In this document: in pieces, positions 201-49,901 of the stretch | Layout: the number at the start of each line of letters is the position of its first letter | How positions within the stretch are numbered: the first letter of the stretch is position 1 | DNA from: Zygnema cylindricum | Lineage: Eukaryota; Streptophyta; Zygnematophyceae; Zygnematales; Zygnemataceae | Reading direction: 5' to 3' | Assembly (NCBI GenBank): GCA_037447655.1 | Contig: JBBHKE010003473.1 | Coordinates: 1 to 64,000, forward strand | Length of the DNA stretch: 64,000 bases | Notes under the pieces: generated by a model | The model's database searches: none | The model's input: the letters and a program-made list of their open reading frames with translations, nothing else | Told to the model about the DNA's origin: nothing | Position numbers and translations under genes: made by a program

Positions 201-2407
201 ATGCTCAAAAGCTTTGTTGAATGGATCCTCCTCTTTTTTTGTTGGGTCGGAAAAGAATGACCAGAGAATTAGGGCGGAAAAAAGATGTAAGCTAATGAAG
301 GCGTTGGTTTCCGCTGGTTCGAGGGATTTGCTCGATGAGAACGATAAACAGGGGATCGAGTCTGTTTTTTCGGAGATAAAAAAGTGGAATTCAATTGAAG
401 ATCAAAATGCGGTTGAGATACCAGAATCTTCCATGGAATCTGTTCTTATAAGATGGCCTCGTGAAATAAATGAGAATGACCTCTGTGCTATCATTTAAAA
501 TATAAGAGATGTGAATCTAGCTTTGAAGGTTCTTCATTGGGCTGTTGGCCGGTTTAACCTTAACATAGCAAATTTAACACAATACAGCCTTTTGTTAGGC
601 AAATGTAGGGAAAATAGTGATATGGAAAATGTAAAACTTATTCGGAGGGAGATGAAAGATAATGGAACTAAACTGAATATGAGGACATATAACAACATTG
701 CACTAGTCAGGTAAAATTCAGGTAGGGTTGATTTAGCTTTTAATGTCCTTCAAGAAATGAAAAAAGTTGGTTTTAATCCCAATTGGGTCACATACAACAT
801 CATGATAGAGGCATTGGGAAACTAAGGCAAGGCGAAAGAGGCTTTATCAATATTTAAGGAGATGAAACTCGTTGGGGTAAATCCAAAGAAAAATACTTTT
901 AGCACATTTAGTACAATTATAGATGTGTTGGAGAAGAAAGGGAGGAGAGAGGAGGTATTTTATGCGTTTAAAGAAATGACTCAGCCGACTCAGCCAGGGG
1001 TGAACCTTGAACCCAGGGAAGGCGACATTTGCCATGATTATTAAGATGTTGGGAAGGGCTGGTAGAGTTGATGAGGCTTGGTGTTAGTTTGAGAAATTAA
1101 AGAAGAGTGAATTAAAGGCAGATGTAAATGACTACGTTGATATGATTGACATTATAGGAAAAAACTGGGAAAGTTTAGGAAGCCTATAGCCTTTTTGAAG
1201 AGATGAGGAAATTTGGGTTGTCACCGGATGCGAGGAAATATCACAACTTAGTAAAAATCATGTGCGAGTCCGGTAGGGTTGACTTGTGAAAGACTTTGCT
1301 TAAGAAAATGGACCAATTAGGGAGCAAGCCTGATGCTGTGATGCACAAAATTATTGTGGACAAGACGGTAAAGGAAGACAAGGTGGAGGAGGGTTTACGT
1401 ATTTTAAATGAGATGGAACATAATGGGCTACCAGCCCCCGAGCTTCCCTACAACACAATTACCTACAACACAGTTACCTACAACATAGTTATGGATGTGT
1501 TGGGAAAGGCTAGTAGAGTTGATGAGGTTTTACTTATGCTGGATAAGATGAAAGAAGCCGGTTTTAAGACCAAGAAAAAGGTATATCACGCAGTGTTAGA
1601 AACGCTAAAACTGGTAGGAAGGGCTTCAAAAGTTTTGATGATATTTGAGAAGATGGAATATGATGGTGTCAAAATAGACGAATCCAATTACCATTCAGTT
1701 ATCAATATGTTGGTAATGATGGGTAGAGTTGATGAGGTTGCTCAAAACTTTGAGAATATGAAACAAGCTGGTTTCAAGCCAAACAAGGTGACCTAAAACG
1801 TATTGTTGAATGCTTTAGAAAATGCAATTTATCGACATTCAAGGAGATGAAACTTGTGGGGCTGGATCCAACTACGAAAACTTTTAACAAATTGATAGAG
1901 CTATTGGGGAATGCCGGATCGGTCAAAGAGGCTTTGAATGTCTTTAGGCAGAGAGAGTATTTTGATGTAAGTGTTGACACAATGACCTTTAATGTCATAA
2001 TTCGTGGTTTGGGAAAAGCAGGACGAGTTGAAAGAGCCTTGAACCTCTTCAAACGGATGAAGAAGGTAGGATTGTCACCAAATGTAAAGACCTTCGATAT
2101 TGTTATGGATTTATTGACGAAGGCCGAAAGAGTAGGTGAAGCTTTGGTAATATTTCAACAAATGAAAAAAAACGGAGGGGGAACTGAGGGGAGAGCTGGT
2201 ATAAAATCCTTCAATTCTATGATAAATGAGTTCGGTAAGCAAGGGCGACTTGACGAGGCTCTTCATGTTTTGGAAGAAATTGTTGAAGCTGGAGTGCAAC
2301 CTGACCATACAACATTAAATGTTGTTAATAATGCTTTGTTAAAAGAAGGGAAGTGGGGTAAAGTGTCTTCACTGCTTAGACACAACCGCCCTAAACTTTA
2401 TCAATAG
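201..2407 (+). pseudogene. Decayed P-class pentatricopeptide repeat (PPR) gene
   Basis: Successive blocks of about 35 residues match P-class PPR motifs, for example VTYNIVMDVLGKASRVDEVL, TFNVIIRGLGKAGRVERALN and SFNSMINEFGKQGRLDEALH. PPR proteins are nuclear-encoded RNA-binding proteins, usually of plastids or mitochondria. The reading frame is broken. Frame 1 carries in-frame stops at 496-498, 712-714 and 823-825, with clear PPR sequence continuing on both sides. Near 1030 the match moves to frame 2, which has stops in the 1080s and near 1190. It then moves to frame 3 (1196-1796, stop at 1287-1289), and near 1828 back to frame 2, which stays open to the stop at 2405. The last 186 residues (1847-2407) are intact. 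A stretch at 995-1030 does not look like PPR and may be a small insertion. With several stops and shifts this is a pseudogene, not an intron-bearing gene. No targeting sequence can be defined. Confidence 0.9.
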
Positions 2408-15342: not shown

Positions 15343-18300
15343 CTAGTCACTTTTCAATTTTATTCCACAGTTTTCTTTGCAATAAATCAACTTAGGAGAA
15401 GGCACTGGTTTTGTCATCATGTCTGCAATCATTTCTCTATCAGTTTTATGAACCAGTTTAATAATTTTATTTTCTACCTTCTCTCTGACAAAGCTTAGTC
15501 TAATATCCATATGCTTAGCTTTGAAGTGATGTTTCGGATTAGCTGCAATAGAGATAGCAGCTTGATTATCACAAAAAACATTTTGAGTTCCTGACTTCAT
15601 GAACCCAAGTTCTTCAAGAAGAGATTTAACCCACATTAATTCTTTGGTGGCAGCACAGGAAGCCATGTATTCAGCCTCCATAGTGGACTGAGCAACTACT
15701 TTTTGTTGCTTGCTACTCCAACAACATGCACCGGATCCAATTTGCAACACATATCCAGTCGTACACCGCCTTAAAGGCACATCTCCATAACTAGCATCAC
15801 TCCAAGTGGTGATGTCAGTGTGCTCCCCTCCCAAATGCAACCATAATTCCCTTGTCCCCACCAGATACCTCATCACCCTTTTGGCAGCCTCCCAGTCTCT
15901 CTTTCTTGGTTCATTTAGATTTCTACTAAGGACACCTACAGCTGCAGCTATATCCGGACGGGTACAATTCATAAAATAAATTAAACTGCCTACAATCTGC
16001 CGATAAGGAATATTTTCCATAAATTTTCTTTATATCTCATCCATCTCATCATTAATGATAAATATTCCTCTCTCTTCACTTCCCTCAAACACTTTTTTCA
16101 AATCCATAGGAGTAGTACATCCGTTTGCTTTTTCCATATGAAATTTTTCTAGCATATTACCGATTGCTTCTTTTTGAGTGAGTCTTATAATTCTATTCCC
16201 TCTATCTCTCTCCATCTGAATTCCCAAAATGTACTTTGCTTCGCCAAGATCTTTCATATCAAAAATGCTTCTAAGATCTCGTTTTAGTTTGTTAATTTTA
16301 TCTAAGGACTTGCTTAAGACCAATAAATCATCCACATAAATAGCAATAAATATCACTCCATTCTCATCCTCAAATAAATATATGGAGTGATCTGAACTAT
16401 TTCTGATATACCCCAAACCGGTCAGAAATTCGTCGAGCTTTAATATTCCACTGTCGCGTGGCTTGCTTAAGCCCATAGAGTGATTTTATCAGTTTGCAAA
16501 CTTTATTTTCTTCCCCACTTTCCACGAATCCTTCCGGTTGCCTCATGTAAATTTCTTCTTCCAACTCTCCGTGCAAAAAGGCCGTTTTAATATCCATCTG
16601 GTGGATTTCCATATCCTCCGATGCGGCTATACTTAAAAGTATTCTAACAGAAGGAAATCTGATTACAGGTGCAAAGGTTTCTTCGTAGTCCATCCCCTCT
16701 TTCTGAGTATAACCTTTTGCAACTAACCTAGCTTTGTACCTCTCAATGGTATTATCTGGGTTTAATTTAAGTTTAAAAACCCACTTACATCCGATCGGTT
16801 TTCGGTCCGGTGGACAATCTACTAACTCCCATGTATTGACTTCCATGATAGAGGCCATTTCTTCATTTATAGTTGTGATCCACCGGCTACTTTCTGGAGT
16901 GTTTATGGCCTCTAAGTATGTTTGAGATTCATCTGGGTGAGACATCTTTGTGAGTTGGTTATTTACTTGTCTCTCTTGAAGTCATTTACTACTTCTCTAT
17001 CCCCCTTCAAAATCGGACGTCGGTATGGAAGGCATCGTTGGGTTTCGTTTAGGGAGATTTTCAGCTCCCCTATCTTCCAATTCCGGTGTCTCATCAAGTT
17101 CCTTATCGGTTTACACTTCGTATTGTGGCGTTGCCTCGGATGTTGTCCTTTCCTCCTTCTTCTTTGGTAGATCTGCAGATTTTTCTTTTTCTCCCTCTTC
17201 CTTCTCTTCATTTTCAAAATCAAAGTCAGAAAACTGATCCGTTTCAAATCTGATTTTGACTTCCTTATTATATTTGAATGGATCAATGGACTTCTCTTCA
17301 TTCATCACCACTATGTGTTTTACTAAAATTATATCTCTCTTTTTCAAGTCATACACTCGGTATCCTTTTGTGCTCTCATCATATCCTACAAGATATCCTG
17401 GCTTCCCTCTCCCCTCTAATTTCCATTTAGTCTTATCGGAATCTAAACTATAAACTTGACTTCCGAACACTCTCAAACTAGACAAATCAGGCTTTCTTCC
17501 TGTCCACCTCTCATACGGAGTTTCCTCCTTATTTGTTGAAGTTAGGACTTTATTTTTGTTGAAATTAGCATATTTCATAGACTTCGCCCAAAACTGCAAC
17601 CCTATCCTCTTATCAGTTAACATACTTCTGGACATATCTCCTAAAGTTTTATTCACTCTTTCTGCTACTCCATTTTGTTCCGGATTATAGGGAACAATTT
17701 TCTCATGATGAATTCCTTCTTCTTTAAGATATTCTTCAAATTCCCTTGAGGTGTATTCTTTCCCATTATCACTTCTTATCTCTTTTATTGAGGTTTCATG
17801 TAGTTTTTCACTCCATACTTTATACTCTTTGAAACATCTTAATACCTCTGACTTATGTCTGAGAAAGTATACCTTCGTGTATCTAGACCAATCATCTGTG
17901 ATGGTTAACATCCATCTCTTCCCCCCGTGTGAAGCATACCTAGCAGGTTCCCAAACATCAGTGTGAACTAGATCTAATACTTTCTCTCTCCTAAATCTGG
18001 TTGCCTTTGGAAATGGAAGTCTATGAATCTTTCCTTGGGCACATCCACTACAATCATCAAAGGTCTCATCATCCTCAAAAGTAATACCCTCCACTATTCT
18101 CTTTTTCTTCATTTTCTTTTATCTATCTAGATCCACATGCCCCAACCTTTTATGCCAAAGCATCATCTCACTTGCACACGAGTAGAGAACACTCTTTTCA
18201 TTGCAAAGAACAATTCTGAACATTCCTTGACTGCCCTTCTCAGCTATGAAATAAACCTCATTATCAAAGTTTGTTGTGAAGATTCCTTTCCTAGTTCCTG

Positions 18301-19755
18301 TTTCAAACTCCTTTTCATCTAGGACACCTGTTGAGACTAGGTTCTTGCTAAGCTGTGGAATGTAAAGAACGTCTGAGAGTGTTACAATTGAGGCCTTTCC
18401 ATCAACAAGAACCTTCAAGTCAACAGTTCCAACAAGACTTGTGGTCTCTACTCTACCATCTCCGTACTCTATCTCAACTGTTGGGATCTTTCTGAGTTTA
18501 GTGAACCACCGCTTATCTTTGCACATATGCATTGAAGCCCCTCAGTCTATGATCCACCCATCCTCGGGTGGATCCCTCTTACCTCCGAAAGCACACTTTT
18601 GTCTCCGTGGAATGTCGACATGCTTTTCAGTGTTTTTCGGATTAAGAAGAAGCTCCTCAAGCTCCTCTTCAGGTTCAGTTTTTCCTTCCACTTCCTCATC
18701 ATGAACTTGAGTCAGGAAATCCTTTTTCTTTTCTCCATCCCTTGAGGTTCCTTGATCATCTTTCAGTCGAAGATCTGCAAGTTTGATACAATCTGCCATA
18801 TAGTGTCTTGGTTTCTTGCAGAAGTGACATAATCCTCCTCGAGAAGTTCCTCTCCCCTGTCAATCAAATCTGCCACCTCCTTGTCCTCTTCCACCAAAGT
18901 TTCGATAGGGATCTTTCCCTCTCTCCTCATCACGCTTCCGCCAATCAGCTCCTGCAGACAATGCTTGAACATTGGGACTCCCTCTCCTAAGCTCTATGGT
19001 GCTTTCTTTCACTAAAATCATTCCCACTGTCTCATCCCAATTCCAATTGCTATCTCCTATGTCTTGCAATCGGTTAATGATATTCTCATACTCTTCAGGT
19101 AGTTTCATCATTAATGTGTTCACTCTTTGTCTCTCGGACCATGAGTTACCTGCACTCTCTAACTCTCCAAACAATGCTCCTAAATTATTGCAATAATTAA
19201 TCATACTTCCTCCTTTATAAGTATAAGCTGCAATTTTATTTTCGGCCAACTGTTGTTGCTGCAATGATCCATTTTATATTTGTTAACTAGTGATATCCAA
19301 ATCTGAGATGAAGATTTGACATGCATAAGGGGAATGGCAATGCCCTTTGCTACACTTTTAAGAATTAAGAGCTTAGCAACCTTGTCTTTGTAGTTCCACT
19401 TTTGATACTCTGATCTTTCGGTCTGAACCCTTGTCGCCGTTTTTGGTGGTGCTGCTGCCGGTATCGCCTTCGGCAATGGTGTCACTTGAGTTGCAACTCC
19501 TTCATTTTCTCCTTCCATGACAATCTCCTCTCCTTCCTCATCTTCATCCTCGGTGATGGTGGCAGCTATTCTATCAACTGTAGAGGCGGAGGTGCTAGAA
19601 AAACGTGTCCCTCCAAACCTAAGTGGAGGTGGGCATCGAATTTGTCCAGACACTATGCCCCATAGATGCTTCTCAAATAGTTCTCCCTCCATCATCATTT
19701 CCCAATAAAGAAAGTCTGATCCATGAAATATGGGCACCCTAGAGGGTGGGCCCAT
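15343..19755 (-). pseudogene. Copia gag-pol polyprotein, broken
   Basis: Gag begins MGPPSRVPIFHGSDFLYWEM (19755 downwards), shifts frame near 19270, and continues to a CX2CX4HX4C zinc knuckle (CHFCKKPRHYMADC, about 18830-18790). The protease active site reads GWIID-stop-GAS: the Ser codon of D-S-G is TGA (18542-18544). Integrase has the H-C zinc site (HKRLGH...CSGC), with a stop between (18119-18121), then the DDE core: HTDVW, SDNGKEY and, 35 residues on, Glu in ERVNKTL. It is open to the stop at 17111. Reverse transcriptase (16945-16030) shows WVFKLKLNPD, RLVAKGYTQKEGMDY, MDIKTAFLHG and an intact YVDDLL, with a frameshift near 16450. RNase H (16020-15343) has SDASYGD and MEAEYMA. Stops also lie in the linker at 17000-17113, at 18860 and at 16030. 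It cannot make a full product. Confidence 0.93.
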
Positions 19756-19759
19756 CACC

Positions 19760-20646
19760 TGAAATTATGTGGTCTCCATTGACCCACAGAATGAGCAGCC
19801 TATGTAAAGCCTCTAGGATAATATTTGCCCTTTTTACTTTCCCGCTGAATAAGCGCCGCCCAGGCACACAAATATTCTGACCACTCTCACCCTTGTGAGG
19901 ACAAGATTCCCCTGAGTCAAACGCAAAAAGAATCACTGAATTTGCTCACCTGAGCAGTAAGTTATGGCTGGTCAAAGATGACCTTTATAGTTACAAGCTC
20001 TCTTAGAGAGAGGTACCTAAATATTTCTAAGTCTTGGTCTGCCTACTCACGACTACCTACTACTAAACCCTAGTCCAATAGGAACACTATATAATACAAG
20101 AAGGTACAATGGGCGATGTACTTATTGTACGACCATTGTATGACAAGGTCTACAAGGTGACACCTGTCAAATCGGAAGCCATGGTTCCTCCTCCCATCTT
20201 CTCCGGTATCAAATAATGTGGCGCCACGTGGCACCCCGTGATGATATCTCCGTATACCGCCAAAAGCTCACTTCGCGTGGCGGCTATAATGCCGACCGTC
20301 CGATCAAAACATATTTTACACGGTTCAGATTCGCGTACATGCAGAAATTGCTCCTTTTGGTTAGTCTGTTGTTAATTAGCTGTTGCGTTAATGTTTATAT
20401 ATTTATGAAACCCATCACGTGTATCCTTTCGTAACGCCTTAATGGAGAAGGTGTTAGGCTAAAGAGAATCAAGAGGTCACAGGTTCAAATCTAGACCTAT
20501 GGTCGTATTAGCCAAAATACCCTTTACTTCAAAAACTGCCACTTTCTAAATATCGCGGCAGCCATGGCGCGCCTTTGATCCTCACTCTCTTTCTTTTAAG
20601 CAAAAGTAAAATAGGGAAGTGAACTATTAATTACCTCTTTTCAACA
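19760..20646 (-). repeat. 5' LTR of the copia element
   Basis: 887 bp, starting TGTTGAAAAG and ending AATTTCA on the minus strand. It contains about 29 bp (near 20405-20433, ATGAAACCCATCACGTG...) absent from the other LTR. A tRNA-like segment with a GGTTCAAATC B-box lies at about 20431-20498. No obvious PBS complementary to initiator tRNA-Met follows; the gag ATG lies only about 5 nt inside the LTR boundary. Confidence 0.9.
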
Positions 20647-24552: not shown

Positions 24553-27500
24553 ATGATGAGCCAACCAAAATTCGACATGTCGGCAGCTTTAGAAGATGAC
24601 CTAGATCTGCCGGACTTGCCGCTTCTCGGACCGTTAGAGACCATAGGCCTAGGTCACATGGGAGTCCTCCATGGTTTCGCTGAGGCCACAGATAATTATT
24701 CCGAAAATATGGATTTGTCCACAGGCGGTACAACAACGCCACGTGTCATTGGAGAAGGAAGCAGTGTCTCTGGAAGCTTGAGAGCTCCTTCTTCTACTTC
24801 CTTAAACGATAGCAGCTCTCAACACTGGCAAAATTCCTTTGGAGGATCTCCTTCCATGCCTTTTGGACAGCAGGCCTTGCATTCGCTGGTAGGCTTTTGT
24901 CTTTTTAGGCTTTTGTCTTTTTAGGCTTTTGTCTTTTTAGGCTTTTGTCTTTTTAGGCTTTTGTCTTTTTCTGTTTGGTTTGATTTAGGCTTCGATTTTG
25001 GTTTCGGTTTCTGCTTAGATTCTAGGTAGAGTTTGGTGAATCGTGGCGTGTTTCAGATTTGACTTTGGTCAACGCTTGGTTGAGACCCTCCGTTTTATGG
25101 TTGTTGAGTTCTGGTTTTTTGTTTTTGGTTCGGGTTCAGTTGTTTTTCTTGATTCTCCCCAGCCTTGATAAAGGCTATTTTTTGTTCTATTCTATCTAGT
25201 GTTCCTCTGAGTTTGTGCTGGATGTTTTTGTATGATTATTTGTTGGCCTGCATTTCTATTTTGGTATGATTTTTGTTGTTCCGATAATGCTAATATTTAC
25301 GGTCAGATGTCAGTCCTTAGTCTTTCTGGTGAACGTTTTAGGGTGCTTTTTTGTTTGGGATTCTGGTTTTTTCCTCTATGCGAAGAGCGAATCAAGCCAA
25401 TTGCTGCTCCTCTTTTGTCTATCTGTACGGATATAAAGAGATACTGTTAGGTTTCAGCCAGTAATGAATACATTGCTTAGCTTAAATATATTTGAGTAGC
25501 ATGTACAGCTACTCTTCTAGCTGATTGATGGCTGTAGATTCTCCTTTTTTTTCTGTTCAATTATCAAATATAAGCGTCAGTTAATGCTGTATTTCTATGT
25601 CTTATCACTTCTTCTTGTAGGCTGACCCAAGCTGCTTCGTCTTACATCAAAACCTTTCTTGTCAATTTTTTTTCCAAAGCTTCTTTGTCAACTTTGTCCT
25701 TGCACTTCTGATACTCGAAGAGCGTTTTAAAGCTTATGGCTTTTGCCGATTTTGTGCAGCAGCTCGCTTTAAACATTGCTCGTACGGAAGAAGTTATCAG
25801 CAATATAACTCGTGAACGCAATCAATTTCAAAAGGAATATTCAAAGGCCCAGCTAGCAGCTCAAAAGCTTATGCAAGAGAAACTTCTTCTCGAGGAGAAA
25901 ATTCGAAACTATGAGGTCCTTGTGGAACGTATGGGAATGCAAGCATTTCAGGAAGCAATGCAAACACTCAGGGATGCTTTTGATCAGGTAAAGGACTAAC
26001 TGTAATAGTACTCAAACATTTCAATTTAACTCGTAGCAAAAAATACAGATGTGGGGTTGGAGTGAAAGCCTGACTTATTTCTGGAAAAGTTGTTTTTGTT
26101 TTGTGTCACAGGCTCCTATTCCAAGAGGCATTCGGTTTGCCCCCACTGATGTAGAAGTGTTTGATTATTTATCTCGAAAGCTTCGAGGCGCACAAGAAGA
26201 TGTCGGATTGGACCGCTTTTTAGTTCGGCGTTTGCGAGGAGTACAAGATTCTGAAGGTCTTATTCCAGAAGTGGAATTATTAAAGTTTCCAAGGCCATGG
26301 CATCTACCAGGTGTGTAAGCCTTTTTTCTACGTCCTTGAGTTTAGGAGAATGCTGCTTTTGTATTTCATGGGAGGTTTTAAGTTAAGAGCTCATTCTTTA
26401 AAGTTTTGCTCACTGATTTTGTCTTTTTTTGGGTTGGGAAACAGGTCTCGATGTGGCTCCTGATGGAAAGGGGCAAGTGGGATTTTATTTTGTTCGACCA
26501 GAATGGCGTCCCAATGAGAGAAGAAGAAGACGAGAGGCAGATATGGCCGCAAGAGACGGGAAACCTCCTTGTTGGAAGGAATCTTGTCAACCTACCACTT
26601 TTGACGATCTTCGACCAGGATATGGAGGTCGTCCAGAGAGGAGAATGTTTAGATTTAAGCTTCCCGGTACTCGAGAAGGACCTGCAGGAGAAAAGAAGGA
26701 AAAGTGGAAAATGTACGAGTACACTCTAAAAAGTGATGCAGAAATGTATGAGGATCGACGGAACGGTTTACAGGTGTGGGTGGTTTGTAAAGTTGTAAGA
26801 GAAGGGCCCATGACTGCAGATGAGATAGAAGAGCAGAATGAGAGGATCTTAGGTGGAGGGGGAGGAGGAGGAGGATTTCCTGGTGCAGGTAATGGAAATT
26901 TCTTTGGAGGAGGGTTAGGAAGAGGGCCTGGAATGGGCGGACAAGACGGAACATCATCATCTGGTACCGGCGGCTCAAGTATATCTGGTCTAGGACAGTC
27001 CTTCATGGGAGGAGGAGGTCCTTTTGGGGGAGGAGGGATGCAACATTCCTTCAGAACAGCAGCAGGAGCACAATCTGGAGAGGGAAATGCAAAAGGGAGC
27101 CCTCCATCTGGTTCTAAAGGGGAGGAAAAGAGCAGTAACACTGCCTCAGGGAACTCGACAAATGGAACGTCTGAAGGTTCTGGAGTAATTAAGAGCTCTA
27201 GCAGTGCAAGTAGAGGTCTTCTAGACTGGCTTCAGTCTGTACCTCCTCCAATGCCTGTTAAAGACAGAAGAACTGGATTGGCTGTGGTTTTGGAAGATGG
27301 GTCTAAAGGGGGACAAGAAGGCGAGCTTATTGTTAATGATGGGATTTCTTCTTCGAGCAGTGTGAGCTGGATGGCGAGATTTCCAGACGCTCAAAAGGTA
27401 GTAGGCTCTCTTCTTGAGGACTTCTTTGTGAGCAAGCTCGTTGTGCAGTTGAGACAGGAGGAAGTTTCTGGGAAGGGAGCCTGTTTGGAACCTCCTAGTT

Positions 27501-29709
27501 GGAGGCGAGCCTTGACCGAAGAAGACTGGAAAACGGAAGAAAGCGAGGAGGATGAAGAGTTACCTGCTTCTGAAGAAGGAGAGGAGGAGGAGGCAGAAGG
27601 AGAATATGAAGATGATGATGAACTCTGTAGACCAATGGAAGGAAGTGCTCTGGACGTTCTTGCAAAATCAATGCTAGCGGAAGTGAAGAGTTTGTCGACT
27701 GCATTATCGGATTCCTCCGAAAAAGAAATTTCTGGTCGCCTCGAAGGTTTTCTCTCAAAGACATCTGTGGTCCTTAATGAGTTCATCAGTCAGGCAGGAC
27801 GTGATGAACCGGCGGCTCAACTATGGCTAGAATCTCTTCAAGACAGTTTACGGAAAGTGAGAACTGTCATAGAAAGTCTGGCCGGGAAAGCCCAGTCTCG
27901 AATTCTCCTTCTTGTGAAGAGTCCAGAAATGGCTCAAGAGGCTCAAATGGCTGTGAGACGCTTGGCTCATGTTTTGTCTCTTTTACCTAATGTCCATTTG
28001 GACGCCATGTCAGCAGACGTTAGAAGGCAACTCGGAGAATTGAAGGGAGCCATGGTTAAGGAAAATTTTGCACCGATGGCCTCGACTTTGGAGGCCATTT
28101 GCAAATTACAACAGGCCTTGGATGCAGGAAAATCTGGGCGAAAAGGTGAAGACGAAAAGAGTTTGAAGAATTGGGGTGTGAAGGAATTGGATTTGAGTTC
28201 TGATGATATTGCGGATCTGAAGGCCTTGAACAAATTGAAGGAGGCTCTGCTTGGGTTTCCGAGTAAGACGAAGGCGAGTTCCCAAATGGGTATATCTCCG
28301 GTAATGAGCAGTTTGGTGGTGGAAGTTTTCTCTCTTGTGGGTGTTCAATGGGATTCTTCAGCTGTTTCTGTGGAGTTGGAAAGGCTGGGGAAAGTGACAG
28401 AGGCTCGAGGAGTTCAGAAAAATGTAGTGAAAAATGTAAAACCTGAAGGAGAGGACGCGGATCTTGCAGAAGGGGTTATTGCTCTCTTAAGGGCTTGTTC
28501 CACAGGTGTTGTCACCGATTACAATAGTCTCGACATCTTTCCGGATCCGAAAGTTGCGACTGGTAAATGTAAAGATTCAGTGGATTCGGGGATACCGACT
28601 CCTGCTCCTCTGGTTTACAGTTGTAAATTGTTTAACCGACAAGAGATTGACAGTGTTAAAGGGGAAAGGCTACATGATGTCTTATCCGGAAAGCTGAACA
28701 ATTTCCCTGTCAGTTTGGTTTTCCTCGACAGAACCAAAGTTCCTGAAATTGCGTTACATCGGGAAGTGGAATCTGTTGCAAATATTCGGCATCCAAATGT
28801 CGTCTCTCTTATTGGTTGTTGCCCCGAGGCAGCTTGCCTGGTCTATGAACAACTCCCAGTTGTCAGCCTTGAGGATTATCTACACCAATCAGGAGGGTCG
28901 ACTCATCGAAATCTTGGCCCAGAATTACCTCATCTTCCATGGAATGCCCGTTTTATGATCTGTTATGAGATTGCTTCCGCCCTCGCTTTCCTACACGGTC
29001 AGAAACCTGTTCAAGTCTTACATAGAGACGTTCGTCCGGCGAATGTCATGATTGGTTGGGATTCGACCAATTTTGTCGCGACGGGGCTATGGCCTACTAG
29101 CAAAGTCCTTCGAGGTAGTGTTGTGAGTAAACTTGCAGGGGTGGGAGTAGCTGCAATTGGTAGAGAACATGAGCCTGGAAAAACTCCTATGGATGGGGAC
29201 GGACTGTATTTGGACCCGTCTTTTGCGAGATCGGACTGTTTCTTTGTTCCCTCAGCCGATGTTTATGCTTTGGGAGTTATTATGGCTCAATTGTTGACCG
29301 GACGACATCCTCCGAGTGCGATAAGAGCTGTGGCTTCGACTTTCGATGGAGGAAAAAAGACTCTTGTGTCAGTTTTGGATCCAAAGGCTGGGGATTGGCC
29401 AATGGGAGCCGCTGAGGTATTTGCGAGAGTCGCGTGGAAATGTTCTATGTTGGAGAGAGCTGCTCGACCAGAGCTGAAGGAAGTGCTCCCTCTACTTGAA
29501 AAGGTGAGTTAATATGTGTGTGTATGTGTTCTTTTTTTGGATGAGTTTTTTTTTACTTTTATTATATTACCATTTTAAGTGGCGAATATGTTGAATTGCT
29601 ATTTCTTTGCTCTACGAAAGTTAGGATTTTCTGGGTGGGCGGGTGATTTTCTATGGTTGTTGTTGATTATGGGATTTTTTGTTAAATGCAGGCCGTGGGT
29701 GAATGCTGA
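24553..29709 (+). CDS. NAC domain - PUB-type helical region - pseudokinase fusion protein
   Basis: Proposed exons: 24553-24888, about 25721-25987 (first residues uncertain), 26112-26310, 26445-29503, 29692-29709. All have GT/AG borders and compatible phases, giving about 1,290 residues. Order: acidic N-terminus; a coiled coil (exon 2, RTEEVISNITRERNQFQKEY...); a divergent NAC domain with subdomain A (IPRGIRFAPTD), B (IPEVELLKFPRPWHLPG), a weak C, D (KWKMYEYTL) and E (WVVCKV). Then Gly-rich (26850-27060) and acidic (27530-27630) linkers. Next is a helical region (27640-28300) like the U-box N-terminal domain of PUB proteins (ALDVLAKS, SRILLLVKS, MSADVRRQL). Last is a kinase fold (28610-29500) close to PUB/RLCK kinases (RHPNVVSLIGCCPEAACLVY, YLDPSF, VLDPKAGDWPM). 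The beta-3 Lys is Val and the DFG Asp is Ala, so catalysis is unlikely. No U-box follows. Expected role: nuclear regulator (inference). Reading through the last donor gives ...LLEKVS instead. Confidence 0.85.
24891..24970. repeat. 16-bp tandem repeat in intron 1
   Basis: Five perfect copies of AGGCTTTTGTCTTTTT directly after the exon-1 donor. The repeat recreates TTTTTAG acceptor-like strings five times just inside the intron. Confidence 0.9.
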
Positions 29710-36814: not shown

Positions 36815-37689
36815 TCATGCTATTCTATGTAGATTTAAAACTAGTGCATAAATAGAAACGCTAGTAACGCCCAAAACAATACCTGATATATATTGAAAAC
36901 ATGAAAAGAATTGAGGAATCGAATTAAGAGCTCTCATTTTAAAATAATTGCTTCCTATCTGAAACATTTTTGAAAATAGAAAAGGTGCCAAATACACTAA
37001 AATAACCAAAGCTACAAATAGGGACCTATAGAGAAGTAGGAGATTCCGATGCCCTATATTTAGTATCATCTTTCTATTAGTCGTCAAAGTCAAGAAACTT
37101 TTCTCTTCTCCTTCTCCGGCGATTTTGTTTCTTCTCTTCCTTTCTATAGCCAATATTGATCCAATGAGAAAAAGAGGAGTTGGTAGAGTAAATAAAATAG
37201 GGGAAATTAGGACAACAGATACAATTGCCATTTGTACGTTGACAAATAGATTGATAAGTAATCTCATGACATTATAAATCAATATTTTTAAAAATGCCAA
37301 TTTAGTAAAATCCGCGAGAAGGTAAAGACCTCCAATAATGGTCATTAACGCAAGAGAAAAAATTGGGACTTTGGTAATGATCTTGAAAAAAACGTTTTCC
37401 ATTTCTATGTTTCGCCGAAGCCATCGTTTTCCTGGAATTCCTCATTTTTGTCGGTTTCCCGCCCTTCGCTTCCTCGCGATCCCGCCTGCTGACGTACGTG
37501 ATGACTCGAATGTGCCAGCTGGAAGGAGCTTAAGCTGGTGTACGGGTTCCCTCTAAGCGCGCAGCGGTTTGAGGGCAGGTGACGTGACGAAAGGAAAGAG
37601 AGGCGGTGATGACGTGTCAGCGAAGGGGAAGAAGGGGAGAGGAGAGCAAAAAAAGTAGCATGATGGTGGGAGAGGAGCATGGTTGCCAT
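36815..37689 (-). pseudogene. Membrane-protein family copy 1, frame-broken
   Basis: The N-terminal 94 codons (from ATG at 37689, MATMLLSHHHATFFALL) match copies 2-5. After ...GFGET the copy-3 codon GAG is TAG, and one A is missing a few bases later. The body therefore continues in another frame from 37402 (MENVFFKIITKVPIF...) for 195 residues to the stop at 36815. The body holds four hydrophobic segments and the block TTNRKMILNIGHRNLLLLYR, shared exactly with copy 3. The intact body could still be translated from its own ATG without the transit-like part, but the simplest reading is a recent pseudogene. It is the minus-strand partner of copy 2. Confidence 0.8.
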
Positions 37690-38476
37690 GAGAAAGAGGA
37701 CTTAAAAGAACGAAAAGGGAGAGGGAGAAGGAGAAAAAAAGAGAGAGAGGAATAATTGCAGGTTTGAAATGGACAGGACTCATCATTCGGTCAGCCGTGT
37801 CCACATTATAATGTTATATTCCTTTGTGTTTCGTTTATTTCGTTTCGACCTTTATGTGTGATTGTTGTACGGATGTACTTAGTTTGTAATTTCCGTACGT
37901 TTTGGAGATTGACGCGACGTGGTGTACGGAACGTACTTCGAAGGTTTCAACTTCAAAGAAAAGCCCTTATGAGACCTTAAAAAAGAAAAGCCTCGTTCAA
38001 ATACTTTTTTGGCGGACAGAAATTACTCAAATTCGGCCGAATAGCCTCGTTCAGTTTCTTTTTTGGCGGAAATAAATCAACCTAAAAAGCCTTTCAAATT
38101 TTTTTTGGCGGAAAAACCTAAAAAAGCCTCGTTCGGATATTTTTTTTGGCGGAAATAAATTGACCTTCGGCGTCCTCGAATGTAACGACCCTGTCCAGCC
38201 TGTCACGTCACGTCCGTAACTTTTTTATTTTGGCGGAAACAAATCAACCTAAAAAGCCGCGTTCGGATATTTTTTTGGCGGAAATAAATTGACCTTCGGC
38301 GTCCTCGAACACAATTCGACCCGGTCCCAGTCTGTCACGTCACGTCCGAAACTACGAATCAGTGTAGCTCCACGTGGCAGTTGTTGCTCCAATCAAAAGT
38401 CTAATGTGCAATCACTATTTACGATGTATACACTGGATAGGACCTTTATTTCTCTCTCTCCCTCTTTCTCATACGC
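37690..38476. promoter_or_regulatory. Shared divergent promoter of copies 1 and 2 with six E2F-like sites
   Basis: This is the 787 bp between the two start codons. TTTGGCGG, usually followed by AAA, occurs at 38008, 38062, 38104, 38145, 38229 and 38274 within 45-60-bp repeats (AAAAGCCTCGTTC, GGCGGAAATAAAT, CCTTCGGCGTCCTCGAA). It fits the plant E2F consensus WTTSSCSS. CACGTCACGTCCGAAACT ends two of the repeat groups. Both leaders are pyrimidine-rich on their coding strand, and both carry a block close to ATGGACAGGAC just upstream. The same parts occur at 45.9-46.2 and 48.7-48.98 kb. Function is inferred. Confidence 0.55.
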
Positions 38477-39376
38477 ATGGCGGCCGGGCTCCTCTCCCAC
38501 CACTATGCCCCTTTCCTCGGTCTTCTCTCTCCTTCCCCCTCTTCTCCCACACGCCATGGCCGCCTCTCCGTACACTCGTCACGTCCTCTCCCCCCAGGCC
38601 ACGGCTCTTTTAGAAAGAATCCGTACACCTGCCCCACACGGTACCAGAAAGTACAGCCACGCCATTGCTTACCTCAGCAGGCAGAAATGGGAGGAGAGGG
38701 ACAGGAAATTGACAAAATTGATGACGTCAAGGAACCGGAATTCAGCAAAGATTTGGAGAGGAGATGTCTCAAAATTGTCTCCTTCATATATTTCTTTTTC
38801 ATTTTCATAATTACCTTTTCTGAAACAACTCATAGCATTTTACGCACATTATTTCCGATGGAGCTTTTCATTTATTCGCGTCAAATCGCCGATGTTTATG
38901 TAAAATTTCAGATGGCAGTTGTCCTTTTTATTATGTTAGCGGCTCCGATATTTATCGTACAAAGTCCCTTTCTTCTTTATTGTAAAACGATAAAAAAATC
39001 TGCCTCATCGATTGAAATCAATGGCCAAGAAAGGAGCAATAGAGGGGAAAAATGGAATTTCACACAGATATATGAAAAATGGTTTGGAGGAAAAGCTGTG
39101 TTTGGTTGGTATAGGGTTTTATTTTTTAGCCTAACAGCAATCTCATATTTGACTACCACCGCATTTTTGAGTTCAGGTCTCTACATAGTCGTGGGAAAAG
39201 AAGAAGTGTTTGGTGCTCTAATGTATTCTTTGGAGGAAATTTCTATAGTTGGAGTATTCTTTTCCAAGAGTTATTTACGTATGATGATTCCAGGGTTCCT
39301 TTTGGCCTTACCGATGTTAGTGTGGTTGGATAAACAGATCCAAATGCTTAGAAATGAGAGAAATCAAAAGAAGTAG
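38477..39376 (+). CDS. Membrane-protein family copy 2, intact, putative plastid protein
   Basis: Single exon, 299 residues; I recognise no family. Residues 1-69 are rich in Ser, Pro, His and Arg with no acidic residue (MAAGLLSHHYAPFLGLLSPS...), as in a plastid transit peptide. A charged linker (70-97) follows. Then come four hydrophobic segments at about 99-115, 144-168, 213-240 and 256-284, and a basic tail ending NERNQKK. A charged loop (169-200) separates segments 2 and 3. The ATG was chosen because MAAGL.SHHYAPFLGLL is conserved in copy 4 and because it follows a CT-rich leader. It is head-to-head with copy 1. The open frame and near-intact copy 4 suggest a working gene. A four-helix plastid envelope or thylakoid protein is an inference; the transit reading is from composition only. 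Confidence 0.7.
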   Translation: MAAGLLSHHYAPFLGLLSPSPSSPTRHGRLSVHSSRPLPPGHGSFRKNPYTCPTRYQKVQPRHCLPQQAEMGGEGQEIDKIDDVKEPEFSKDLERRCLKIVSFIYFFFIFIITFSETTHSILRTLFPMELFIYSRQIADVYVKFQMAVVLFIMLAAPIFIVQSPFLLYCKTIKKSASSIEINGQERSNRGEKWNFTQIYEKWFGGKAVFGWYRVLFFSLTAISYLTTTAFLSSGLYIVVGKEEVFGALMYSLEEISIVGVFFSKSYLRMMIPGFLLALPMLVWLDKQIQMLRNERNQKK

Positions 39377-44902: not shown

Positions 44903-45799
44903 TTAACATATTCCAACTGCTACTTTACATAGAATACGAATGACATCGGTAATAATACAGCTCGATAAGTGCAAAACATACTCTGACATACAAATAAAAT
45001 ATTTAAAGAAGTAAGGAATCAAAGAAAGAGCTCTTCTTTTAAAAGAATTGCTTCCTAGCTGAAAATATTCTGAGAATAGGAAAGGTGCCAAATACACTAA
45101 AATAACCAAAGCCACATATAGGGACCTATAGAGAAGTAAGAGATTCCGATGCCCTATATTTAGTATCATCTTTCTATTAGTCGTCAAAGTCAAGAAATTT
45201 TTGGCTTTCATCTCTTCTCCTATTCCGGCAATTTTGTTTCTTCTCTTCCTTTCTAGAGCCAATATTGATACAATGAGGAAAAGAGGAGTTGGTAGAGTAA
45301 ATAGAATAGGGGAAATTATGACAACAATTACAATTACCATTTGGAGGCTAACAAATAGATTGACAAGTAATGTCATGACATTCAAACTAAGTAGTCGTAA
45401 GAATGGCGATTTAGCGTCCATTTCGAAGGACAAAAGAAATCCCAGAACGGTTATGAAGGCCAAGAAAAAAATTTGCACTTTGGTAACAATCTTTAAAAAA
45501 TCGTTTTTCCGTTTCTCCGTTTCGCCGAAGACGCCGTCTGCTGTGAATTCCTCATTTTTGTCAATTTCCTGCCCTTCTCCTCCTCCCAGTTTCGCCTGCT
45601 GAGGTAAGCGATGACTCTGTTTTGCCAGCTGGCACCAACTTAAGCTGGTGTACGGACTCCCTCTAAACGCGCAGTGGCCTGAGGGCAGGTGATGTGACGG
45701 AAGGAAAGAGAGGCGGTGATGACGTGTGAGCGAAGGGGGAGAAGGGGAGAGGAGAGTGAGAGAAGTGGCATGATGGTGGGAGAGGAGCATGTATGCCAT
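44903..45799 (-). CDS. Membrane-protein family copy 3, intact, putative plastid protein
   Basis: 298 residues from the ATG at 45799 (MAYMLLSHHHATSLTLLSPS). An in-frame upstream start at 45883 would only add a Ser-Leu repeat from the CT-rich leader, so it was not used. The N-terminus is Ser/Pro/His/Arg-rich and free of acidic residues up to the GGGEGQEIDKNEE linker. Hydrophobic segments follow: KVQIFFLAFITVLGFLLSF; a long one around LQMVIVIVVIISPILF; LLLLYRSLYVALVILVYLAP; and a C-terminal one (YFFKYFICMSEYVLHLSS). It is closest to copy 1, whose disrupted frame it explains. It is the minus-strand member of the second head-to-head pair. No homologue recognised. Confidence 0.7.
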   Translation of the reverse strand: MAYMLLSHHHATSLTLLSPSPPSLTRHHRLSFLPSHHLPSGHCAFRGSPYTSLSWCQLAKQSHRLPQQAKLGGGEGQEIDKNEEFTADGVFGETEKRKNDFLKIVTKVQIFFLAFITVLGFLLSFEMDAKSPFLRLLSLNVMTLLVNLFVSLQMVIVIVVIISPILFTLPTPLFLIVSILALERKRRNKIAGIGEEMKAKNFLTLTTNRKMILNIGHRNLLLLYRSLYVALVILVYLAPFLFSEYFQLGSNSFKRRALSLIPYFFKYFICMSEYVLHLSSCIITDVIRILCKVAVGIC

Positions 45800-46267
45800 G
45801 GGAAGTAGGAACCTAAGAGTGAACGAGAGGGAGAGGGACAGGGAGAGGGAGAGGGAGAGGGAGAGGGAGGAGGACGACTGCAAATTTAGAATGGACAGGA
45901 TCTATTTTCTTTTTTGTGTGCTTGTTGTACTTGTGTACTTTGTACTGAGCTATACCTTCCGTGATTTTTGGACGGTGACGCGACATACCGTTCCTTTCAA
46001 GTTTTAAACTTCAAAGAAAGGCCCTCATCGGACCTGACAAGTGTCCTTCAAATATTTGATTGGCGGAAAATCAACGAACCTGAAAAAGCCTCGTTCATAT
46101 ATTTTTTTGGCGGAAATAAATCTGCGGCGTCCTCTAATTACAATGACCCGGTTCAGCAGTCACGTCACGTCCGAAACTCTGAATACTTCACCTAACGCAG
46201 TTGTACCGTACAATGTTAGGGTATGTGCCCATGTAGCCGGTACTCAGAATAACTACTTTGGATTTAA
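45800..46267. promoter_or_regulatory. Promoter side of copy 3 with two E2F-like motifs
   Basis: GA-rich tract (CT on the coding strand) at 45822-45875, then AATGGACAGGATC, then ATTGGCGG (46059) and TTTGGCGG (46106) with the AAAAAGCCTCGTTC and GGCGGAAATAAAT repeats and CACGTCACGTCCGAAACT, as in the copy 1/2 promoter. A lone GGGTATGTGCCCATGTA MITE end is at 46219. The MITE after it separates this half from the copy-4 half. Confidence 0.5.
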
Positions 46268-48700: not shown

Positions 48701-49022
48701 AACGTTGCTTTCAAGTTTCAACATTCAACGTCAAAGAAAGACCCCCTCATCAAACCCGGAAAGATTCAATCAGATGTTTTTTTGGCGGAATTAAATTGAC
48801 GTTGAGGCGTCCTCGAAAAGAATGGCCCGGTCCACCATACCACGGCACGTGCGAAACTCCGAATCGTTTAGCTACGCGTGGCAGTTGTCCCGAACAATGA
48901 AAATCCTCCAATCATAAGTCCAAATGTCCAATCAATATTTACGAGGCGTGTATTGAATAGGACCGACTTCTTTCTCACACTCTTCTCCCTCTTTCTCCCT
49001 CTTTCTCCCTCTTTTCTCACAC
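48701..49022 (+). promoter_or_regulatory. Promoter side of copy 4
   Basis: TTTGGCGG at 48781 with GAATTAAATTGACGTTGAGG, then CGTCCTCGAA and CACGGCACGTGCGAAACTCC, then TTGAATAGGACCGAC and a CT-rich leader. The arrangement matches 38274-38476 upstream of copy 2, with one E2F-like site in place of six. Confidence 0.5.
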
Positions 49023-49901
49023 ATGGCGGCCGGGCTCCACTCCCACCATTATGCCCCTTTCCTCGGTCTTCTCTCTCCTTCCCCCTCTTCTCTCACACGC
49101 CATGGCCGCCTCTCCGTATACTCGTTACGTCCCCTCCACCCAGGCCACGGCTTGCGCAGAAAAAATCCGTACACCTGCCCCACACGGTACCAGAAAGTAC
49201 AGCCACGTCATTGCTTACCTCAGCAGGCAGAAATGGGAGGAGAGGGACAGGAAAGTGAAAAAAATGTTGAAGTCAAGGAGCCTAAATTAAGCAGATTTTT
49301 GGAGAGGAAATGTCTTAAAATTGTCTCCTTCATATATTTCTTTTTCATTTTTACAATCATCTTTTCTAAGACAACCCGTAGCTTGGCAAGCACATTATAT
49401 CCAACTCAGATTTTTATTTATGTAAAATTTCAGATTGCAGTTGTCCTTTTTATCATGTCAGCAGCACTAATAATTGTCCTCCAAACTCCCTTTCTTCTTT
49501 ATCATACAACCATAAAGAAATCCGCCTCATCCATTGAAAAAGAGGCTCAAGAAAGGAGAGATGGAGGAGAAAAGGTGACTTTCGCTCAAATAATGTATAA
49601 TTCTTTTTTTGGAACAAAAGGTGTGCTTTATTGGGAAAGGCTTATCTTTTTTAGCCTCACAACATTCTTTTATTTTACCATCGCCTCAGCCTGGAGTGAA
49701 GTTTTATCCGCAGTGTTGAATAGAGAAGCAGAGTTTCGTGCTCTAATGACATCTTTGGATGGACTCTGTATAGTTGGGGTAGCCTTTTCCAAGTATTATC
49801 TATGTATGATGCTTCCAGGGTTCCTCTTGGTTTTACCAATATTAGTGTGGTTGGATAAACAGATCCAAATCCTCGGAGATGAAAGAAATCAAAAGAATTA
49901 G
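49023..49901 (+). CDS. Membrane-protein family copy 4, intact, putative plastid protein
   Basis: 292 residues, single exon, closest to copy 2 (MAAGLHSHHYAPFLGLLSPS; the ARY/HR-rich N-terminus and the LPMLVWLDKQIQ-like end LPILVWLDKQIQILGDERNQ are shared). It lacks about eight residues between segments 1 and 2 relative to copy 2. It has four hydrophobic segments; the charged loop is IEKEAQERRDGGEK. It starts at the same ATG context after a CT-rich leader. It is the plus-strand member of the second head-to-head pair. No homologue recognised; plastid targeting is inferred from composition. Confidence 0.7.
   Translation: MAAGLHSHHYAPFLGLLSPSPSSLTRHGRLSVYSLRPLHPGHGLRRKNPYTCPTRYQKVQPRHCLPQQAEMGGEGQESEKNVEVKEPKLSRFLERKCLKIVSFIYFFFIFTIIFSKTTRSLASTLYPTQIFIYVKFQIAVVLFIMSAALIIVLQTPFLLYHTTIKKSASSIEKEAQERRDGGEKVTFAQIMYNSFFGTKGVLYWERLIFFSLTTFFYFTIASAWSEVLSAVLNREAEFRALMTSLDGLCIVGVAFSKYYLCMMLPGFLLVLPILVWLDKQIQILGDERNQKN

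Follow-up and report, generated by a model that had tools for sequence, protein, structure and literature searches.

We have analyzed a 64,000-nucleotide stretch of the genome of Zygnema cylindricum (contig JBBHKE010003473.1, positions 1 to 64,000; hereafter the window). On its forward strand, at 24553-29709, the window carries a gene in which a NAC transcription factor domain and a predicted kinase fold are joined in one open frame. The gene is modelled as five in-phase exons (24553-24888, 25760-25987, 26112-26310, 26445-29503 and 29692-29709) encoding 1279 amino acids plus a stop codon; the inferred splice sites are GT-AG at all four introns. Exon 1 supplies the start codon and a poorly conserved N terminus (residues 1-112, 21-38% identity to relatives) and is the least certain part of the model. 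Just inside intron 1, immediately after the splice donor, a 16-base unit is present in five perfect copies (24890-24970). Exon 2 encodes residues 113-188, a probable coiled coil as judged by eye, with 16-32% identity to relatives. The NAC domain begins in exon 3, which holds subdomains A-B, and continues into exon 4. This exon of 3059 bases (residues 255-1274) encodes the rest of the NAC domain, a linker, an acidic stretch, a helical bundle and the kinase fold in a single open frame. Exon 5 adds the final five residues and the stop. The alignment with related proteins runs uninterrupted through the joins of exon 2 with 3 and of exon 3 with 4; those of exon 1 with 2 and of exon 4 with 5 are less secure, conservation being low in exon 1 and in the final five residues. 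Promoter, tRNA and Rfam scans gave no result bearing on the gene.

The initial annotation of this locus held that the kinase part and NAC subdomains C-E are fused within one exon independently of any choice of splicing, and that subdomains A-B lie on a separate exon of matching phase. The first claim is borne out by a stop-free frame of 1031 codons (26417-29512), which contains exon 4, and by the domain matches on either side of the fusion; the second agrees with the in-phase model and with the alignment of relatives through the 3/4 join. The profile comparison that it proposed gave matches to NAM, Pkinase and PK_Tyr_Ser-Thr, all above the Pfam curated cut-offs. The NAM match covers residues 192-349, across exons 3 and 4, with 40.8 bits against a cut-off of 27 and an expected value (E) of 3.5e-10. 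Pkinase matches residues 1023-1214 (E 4e-17) and PK_Tyr_Ser-Thr residues 1023-1269. These scores exclude chance.

The second part of the NAC domain (26445-26797) extends to residue 372, and the NAC part as a whole is 62-84% identical to those of seven relatives. Residues R196 and E203, which presumably occupy the position of the ANAC019 dimer salt bridge, are invariant in the alignment with relatives. The WKATG motif of NAC domains contacts DNA. At its site the window protein retains the WK pair and continues ESCQPT (WKESCQPT, 26573-26596); in the alignment to ANAC019, ESC replaces ATG and four extra residues precede the position of TDK. The form WKESCQ(P/A)T is found in all eight members compared. 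Conservation of the NAC core together with the ESC letters thus indicates a NAC domain under strong constraint with family-specific DNA-contact letters. Among PDB sequences, the NAC part matches ANAC019 (PDB 1ut4) best (E 3.3e-4). The conserved core makes it likely that the NAC part dimerises and binds DNA, while the letters of the contact site suggest an altered DNA preference; the protein would presumably be nuclear.

The kinase fold (28622-29503) is predicted from the Pfam matches, a structure model and a fold search, the last dominated by kinases spanning about residues 320-619 of the model. Three residues characteristic of active kinases, the beta-3 Lys, the HRD Asp and the DFG Asp, read Val, Asp and Gly, respectively. 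The Val lies at 28718-28720, the catalytic-loop Asp and Asn are retained in HRDVRPAN (29021-29044), and the DFG equivalent is GVG (29138-29146), with loss of the Mg-binding Asp. Among nine members of the family the DFG Asp is missing from every one and the beta-3 Lys from seven, the Spirogloea-labelled rows retaining the Lys. The HRD Asp is kept in seven of the nine, with Lys in its place in proteins P0006 and P0007, and the Asn that follows is kept in six, including the window gene. The description of the kinase part as a pseudokinase is upheld by this comparison, from which an active kinase is judged unlikely.

Between the two domains lie a Gly/Ser-rich linker (26798-27481, residues 373-600), an acidic stretch (27515-27625, residues 612-648; net charge -20 over residues 601-650) and a predicted helical bundle (27650-28060, model residues 2-138), with a predicted local distance difference test score (pLDDT) of 57-87 over its blocks. 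This first helical part is 20-46% identical to those of the seven relatives. The initial annotation had likened the region to the PUB N-terminal domain; a helical bundle is indeed predicted there, but the PUB identity is not supported, as no profile tried links the bundle to PUB proteins. No PUB family was found in Pfam-A at E up to 10 for the pieces from the window, P0001 and P0002, nor for any of five family pieces at E up to 5, and a search of PDB sequences with a bundle profile gave no match up to E 10. As no Pfam or PDB sequence match to a PUB N-terminal domain emerged in any search made, that assignment lacks sequence support. The Pfam matches that did appear, VBS_C3G9 (0.0025, in one of five pieces), Vps53_N (0.043), Luciferase_N (0.064) and BLF1 (0.22), are all weak and were discounted because they disagree among members; in P0008, VBS_C3G9 scores 15.4 bits, short of its cut-off of 27. 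NCBIfam gave kinase-type matches far below their cut-offs and one weak match to the bundle.

The same architecture occurs in related algal proteins, as a search of other proteomes, also proposed in the initial annotation, has revealed. When some 5.8 billion proteins were searched and the 7987 candidates sharing most words were scored, 29 proteins were listed; a profile search (7981 candidates scored) listed 32. Seven proteins with both NAC and kinase parts in the same order (P0001-P0007) were recovered in both. Both domains were precomputed for P0002-P0007; for P0001 the NAM match was precomputed and the kinase match comes from our Pfam scan. P0001, named as a Trinity transcript in EukProt, has a complete open reading frame with both parts, its kinase barely above the cut-off (PK_Tyr_Ser-Thr 23.9 bits against 23.1; Pkinase 21.3, below 31.7). 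P0003 and P0005 are from Closterium sp. Naga37s-1 and P0004 is from Closterium sp. Yama58-4; the label of P0002 (Mesen1) we take to denote Mesotaenium endlicherianum, and those of P0006 and P0007 (SM0000..) Spirogloea muscicola. An eighth protein, P0008 (Closterium sp. NIES-67), starts inside the NAC domain and has the kinase; it is taken as a partial gene model. Of the relatives scanned, all four whose NAC part is complete (P0001, P0002, P0004 and P0006) gave a NAM match, and P0008 and P0030 gave none; a kinase family exceeded its cut-off in those four and in P0008, five out of five. Closterium, Mesotaenium and Spirogloea all belong to the Zygnematophyceae. Spirogloea is placed in a separate subclass, so the fusion dates back to the subclass split, provided that we have interpreted the labels correctly. 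Among the matches listed there was no protein from a land plant that combines the two domains, in searches that find only relatives sharing short words and are therefore no proof of absence.

In the kinase tree the kinases of all nine NAC proteins group together (support 100/98), and this group lies next to three U-box/USP kinases, a placement of moderate support (93/88). The closest kinase domains outside the family, among the matches listed, were the U-box/USP-type (PUB35-like) P0009 (140 bits) and P0010 (123 bits). The kinship of the kinase fold with PUB-type kinases, noted from the window sequence at the outset, accords with this placement. Neither a U-box nor a Usp domain is among the six Pfam families matched by the window protein at E up to 1. 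The profile search also surfaced P0030, a Spirogloea-labelled NAC-like protein with no kinase match and without any Pfam family; P0055, its near-copy under a Spirogloea label, likewise has no kinase match and no precomputed family. These two were the sole proteins obtained in a search with the NAC part (436-residue query, residues 113-385; 1529 candidates), which required shared five-letter words and a length of 0.55-1.75 times the query and thus is no evidence that relatives are absent from land plants. In both proteins CWKESCQ is replaced by CWKVCQ, and the two form a divergent branch of the NAC tree, where a long-branch warning leaves their placement unsure.

We consider it probable that this protein, with its NAC domain and DFG-less kinase fold joined in one exon, acts as a likely DNA-binding NAC dimer whose predicted pseudokinase and bundle dock partners and are not enzymatic. 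The NAC part would bind DNA as a dimer, perhaps aided by the probable coiled coil that precedes it; the Gly/Ser linker and acidic stretch could form a flexible, perhaps activating, tether. The bundle and pseudokinase, to judge from their anatomy, would hold signalling or transcription partners, possibly active relatives of the source kinase. The simplest history would be that a NAC gene fused once with a U-box/USP-type kinase, before the zygnematophyte genera compared had split, after which catalysis would have decayed and the kinase fold been retained. More tentatively, we entertain the possibility of an ancient class of transcription factor peculiar to zygnematophytes, in which a NAC dimer with rewired contacts is coupled to a pseudokinase, which would sense the state of upstream receptor-like kinases and take the signal direct to promoters with no separate relay.

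Several observations weigh against the preferred reading of a DNA-binding factor with a docking tail. The alignment behind the kinase model included three active-type kinases, which biases it toward a kinase fold. For P0007 the structure model was poor (mean pLDDT 40.2), with no usable NAC fold, and was not used as evidence; its fold search gave only kinases among the best 50 matches listed. No single ancestral loss besides that of the DFG Asp is shown, because the beta-3 Lys is still present in the Spirogloea-labelled rows and the HRD Asp in most of the others. The bundle is not well kept throughout: in P0006 and P0007 just 59 of 151 positions can be aligned. The kinase part is 35-48% identical to those of the seven relatives and evolves faster than the NAC part; with the kinase-less P0030 and P0055, this means that the tail may be dispensable. 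Such differences, and the very degenerate kinase of P0001, would also fit a passive remnant of an old fusion that folds and serves at most for stability in an otherwise ordinary NAC factor. We regard such a remnant as unlikely, given that the fusion and its long open frame have been retained in Closterium and in records labelled Mesotaenium and Spirogloea, the latter two of different subclasses, and that the kinase core is recognisable in all five relatives scanned.

Retention of the HRD Asp and of the following Asn in most members, the window gene included, might instead point to a kinase active by an unusual route, phosphorylating the NAC part or partners in a self-regulated factor. This is improbable in view of the loss of the DFG Asp in all nine members compared, the loss of the beta-3 Lys in most members and the Lys that replaces the HRD Asp in P0006 and P0007. 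MLKL consists of a helical bundle (HeLo/4HB) followed by a pseudokinase, and the modelled order of the window protein resembles that plan. An MLKL-like executor coupling DNA binding to cell-death signalling nevertheless seems very improbable, as the bundle gave no Pfam or PDB sequence match in the searches made and, in P0006 and P0007, mostly falls outside the alignment. False chimeras do arise when large plant gene families are annotated automatically, and two adjoining genes might have been wrongly merged here. We reject such mis-joining as hardly credible because exon 4 alone, free of stops, spans both the second NAC half and the kinase matches and because seven relatives, one named as a transcript, agree in the same order. 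The reading that we prefer remains a NAC factor with a docking pseudokinase.

The window contains other features. Pieces of a pentatricopeptide-repeat (PPR) gene lie in two overlapping frames at 1290-2407 (+), and Ty1/copia-type retrotransposon-like pieces cover several open reading frames at 15343-19764 (-), with integrase core and retroviral SH3-like domains at 17111-18118. Four related-looking hydrophobic open reading frames of 208-332 amino acids, at 36815-37441 (-), 38441-39376 (+), 44903-45901 (-) and 48957-49901 (+), have no Pfam match at E 0.01. They sit in direct repeats of 69-90% identity with spacings of about 8.1 and 10.5 kb and are probably a local duplicated family of membrane proteins.

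The evidence points to a conserved family of NAC-pseudokinase proteins, probably of zygnematophyte origin. If so, NAC domains have been put to a use that we have not found described, in a conserved subfamily that has altered DNA-contact letters and a tail predicted to be a pseudokinase, and the family would offer a testable case of a transcription factor linked to a kinase-derived, signal-reading module. A full-text literature search, with most subscription journals outside it, found no account of such a family among the best matches listed, and the accessible portions of PMC9675596, PMC11289646, PMC12820192, PMC11712027 and PMC8670195 do not name a NAC-kinase fusion. According to the accessible text of PMC11096116, 209 combinations of Pfam domains are confined to Zygnematophyceae, and the NAM and kinase pair may already figure among them.

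The nearest kinase relatives outside the family, the U-box/USP (PUB35-like) kinases, keep the Lys, HRD and DVG, whereas the NAC-kinase family has lost the Asp of the DVG/DFG position. NAC factors such as ANAC019 share with the window protein the NAM match, the WK pair and R196/E203; in ANAC019, however, the NAC domain is at the N terminus, whereas in the window protein it begins near residue 190 and has a kinase fold behind it. The initial annotation knew of no NAC protein with a kinase fold. This does not stand: the architecture is common to the related algal proteins, and chimeras of NAC with protein kinase domains are listed in the available part of PMC7147800. Those chimeras show the same pairing as the window gene, which has no EF-hand; the accessible account of them describes no pseudokinase family. 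Among the nine algae of that survey, as far as its accessible text goes, NAC proteins occur only in Klebsormidium, and zygnematophytes lie outside it. The WRKY-kinase chimeras such as AtWRKY19, restricted to flowering plants according to the accessible text of PMC5112548, likewise unite a plant DNA-binding domain with a kinase in one protein, but draw on another DNA-binding family.
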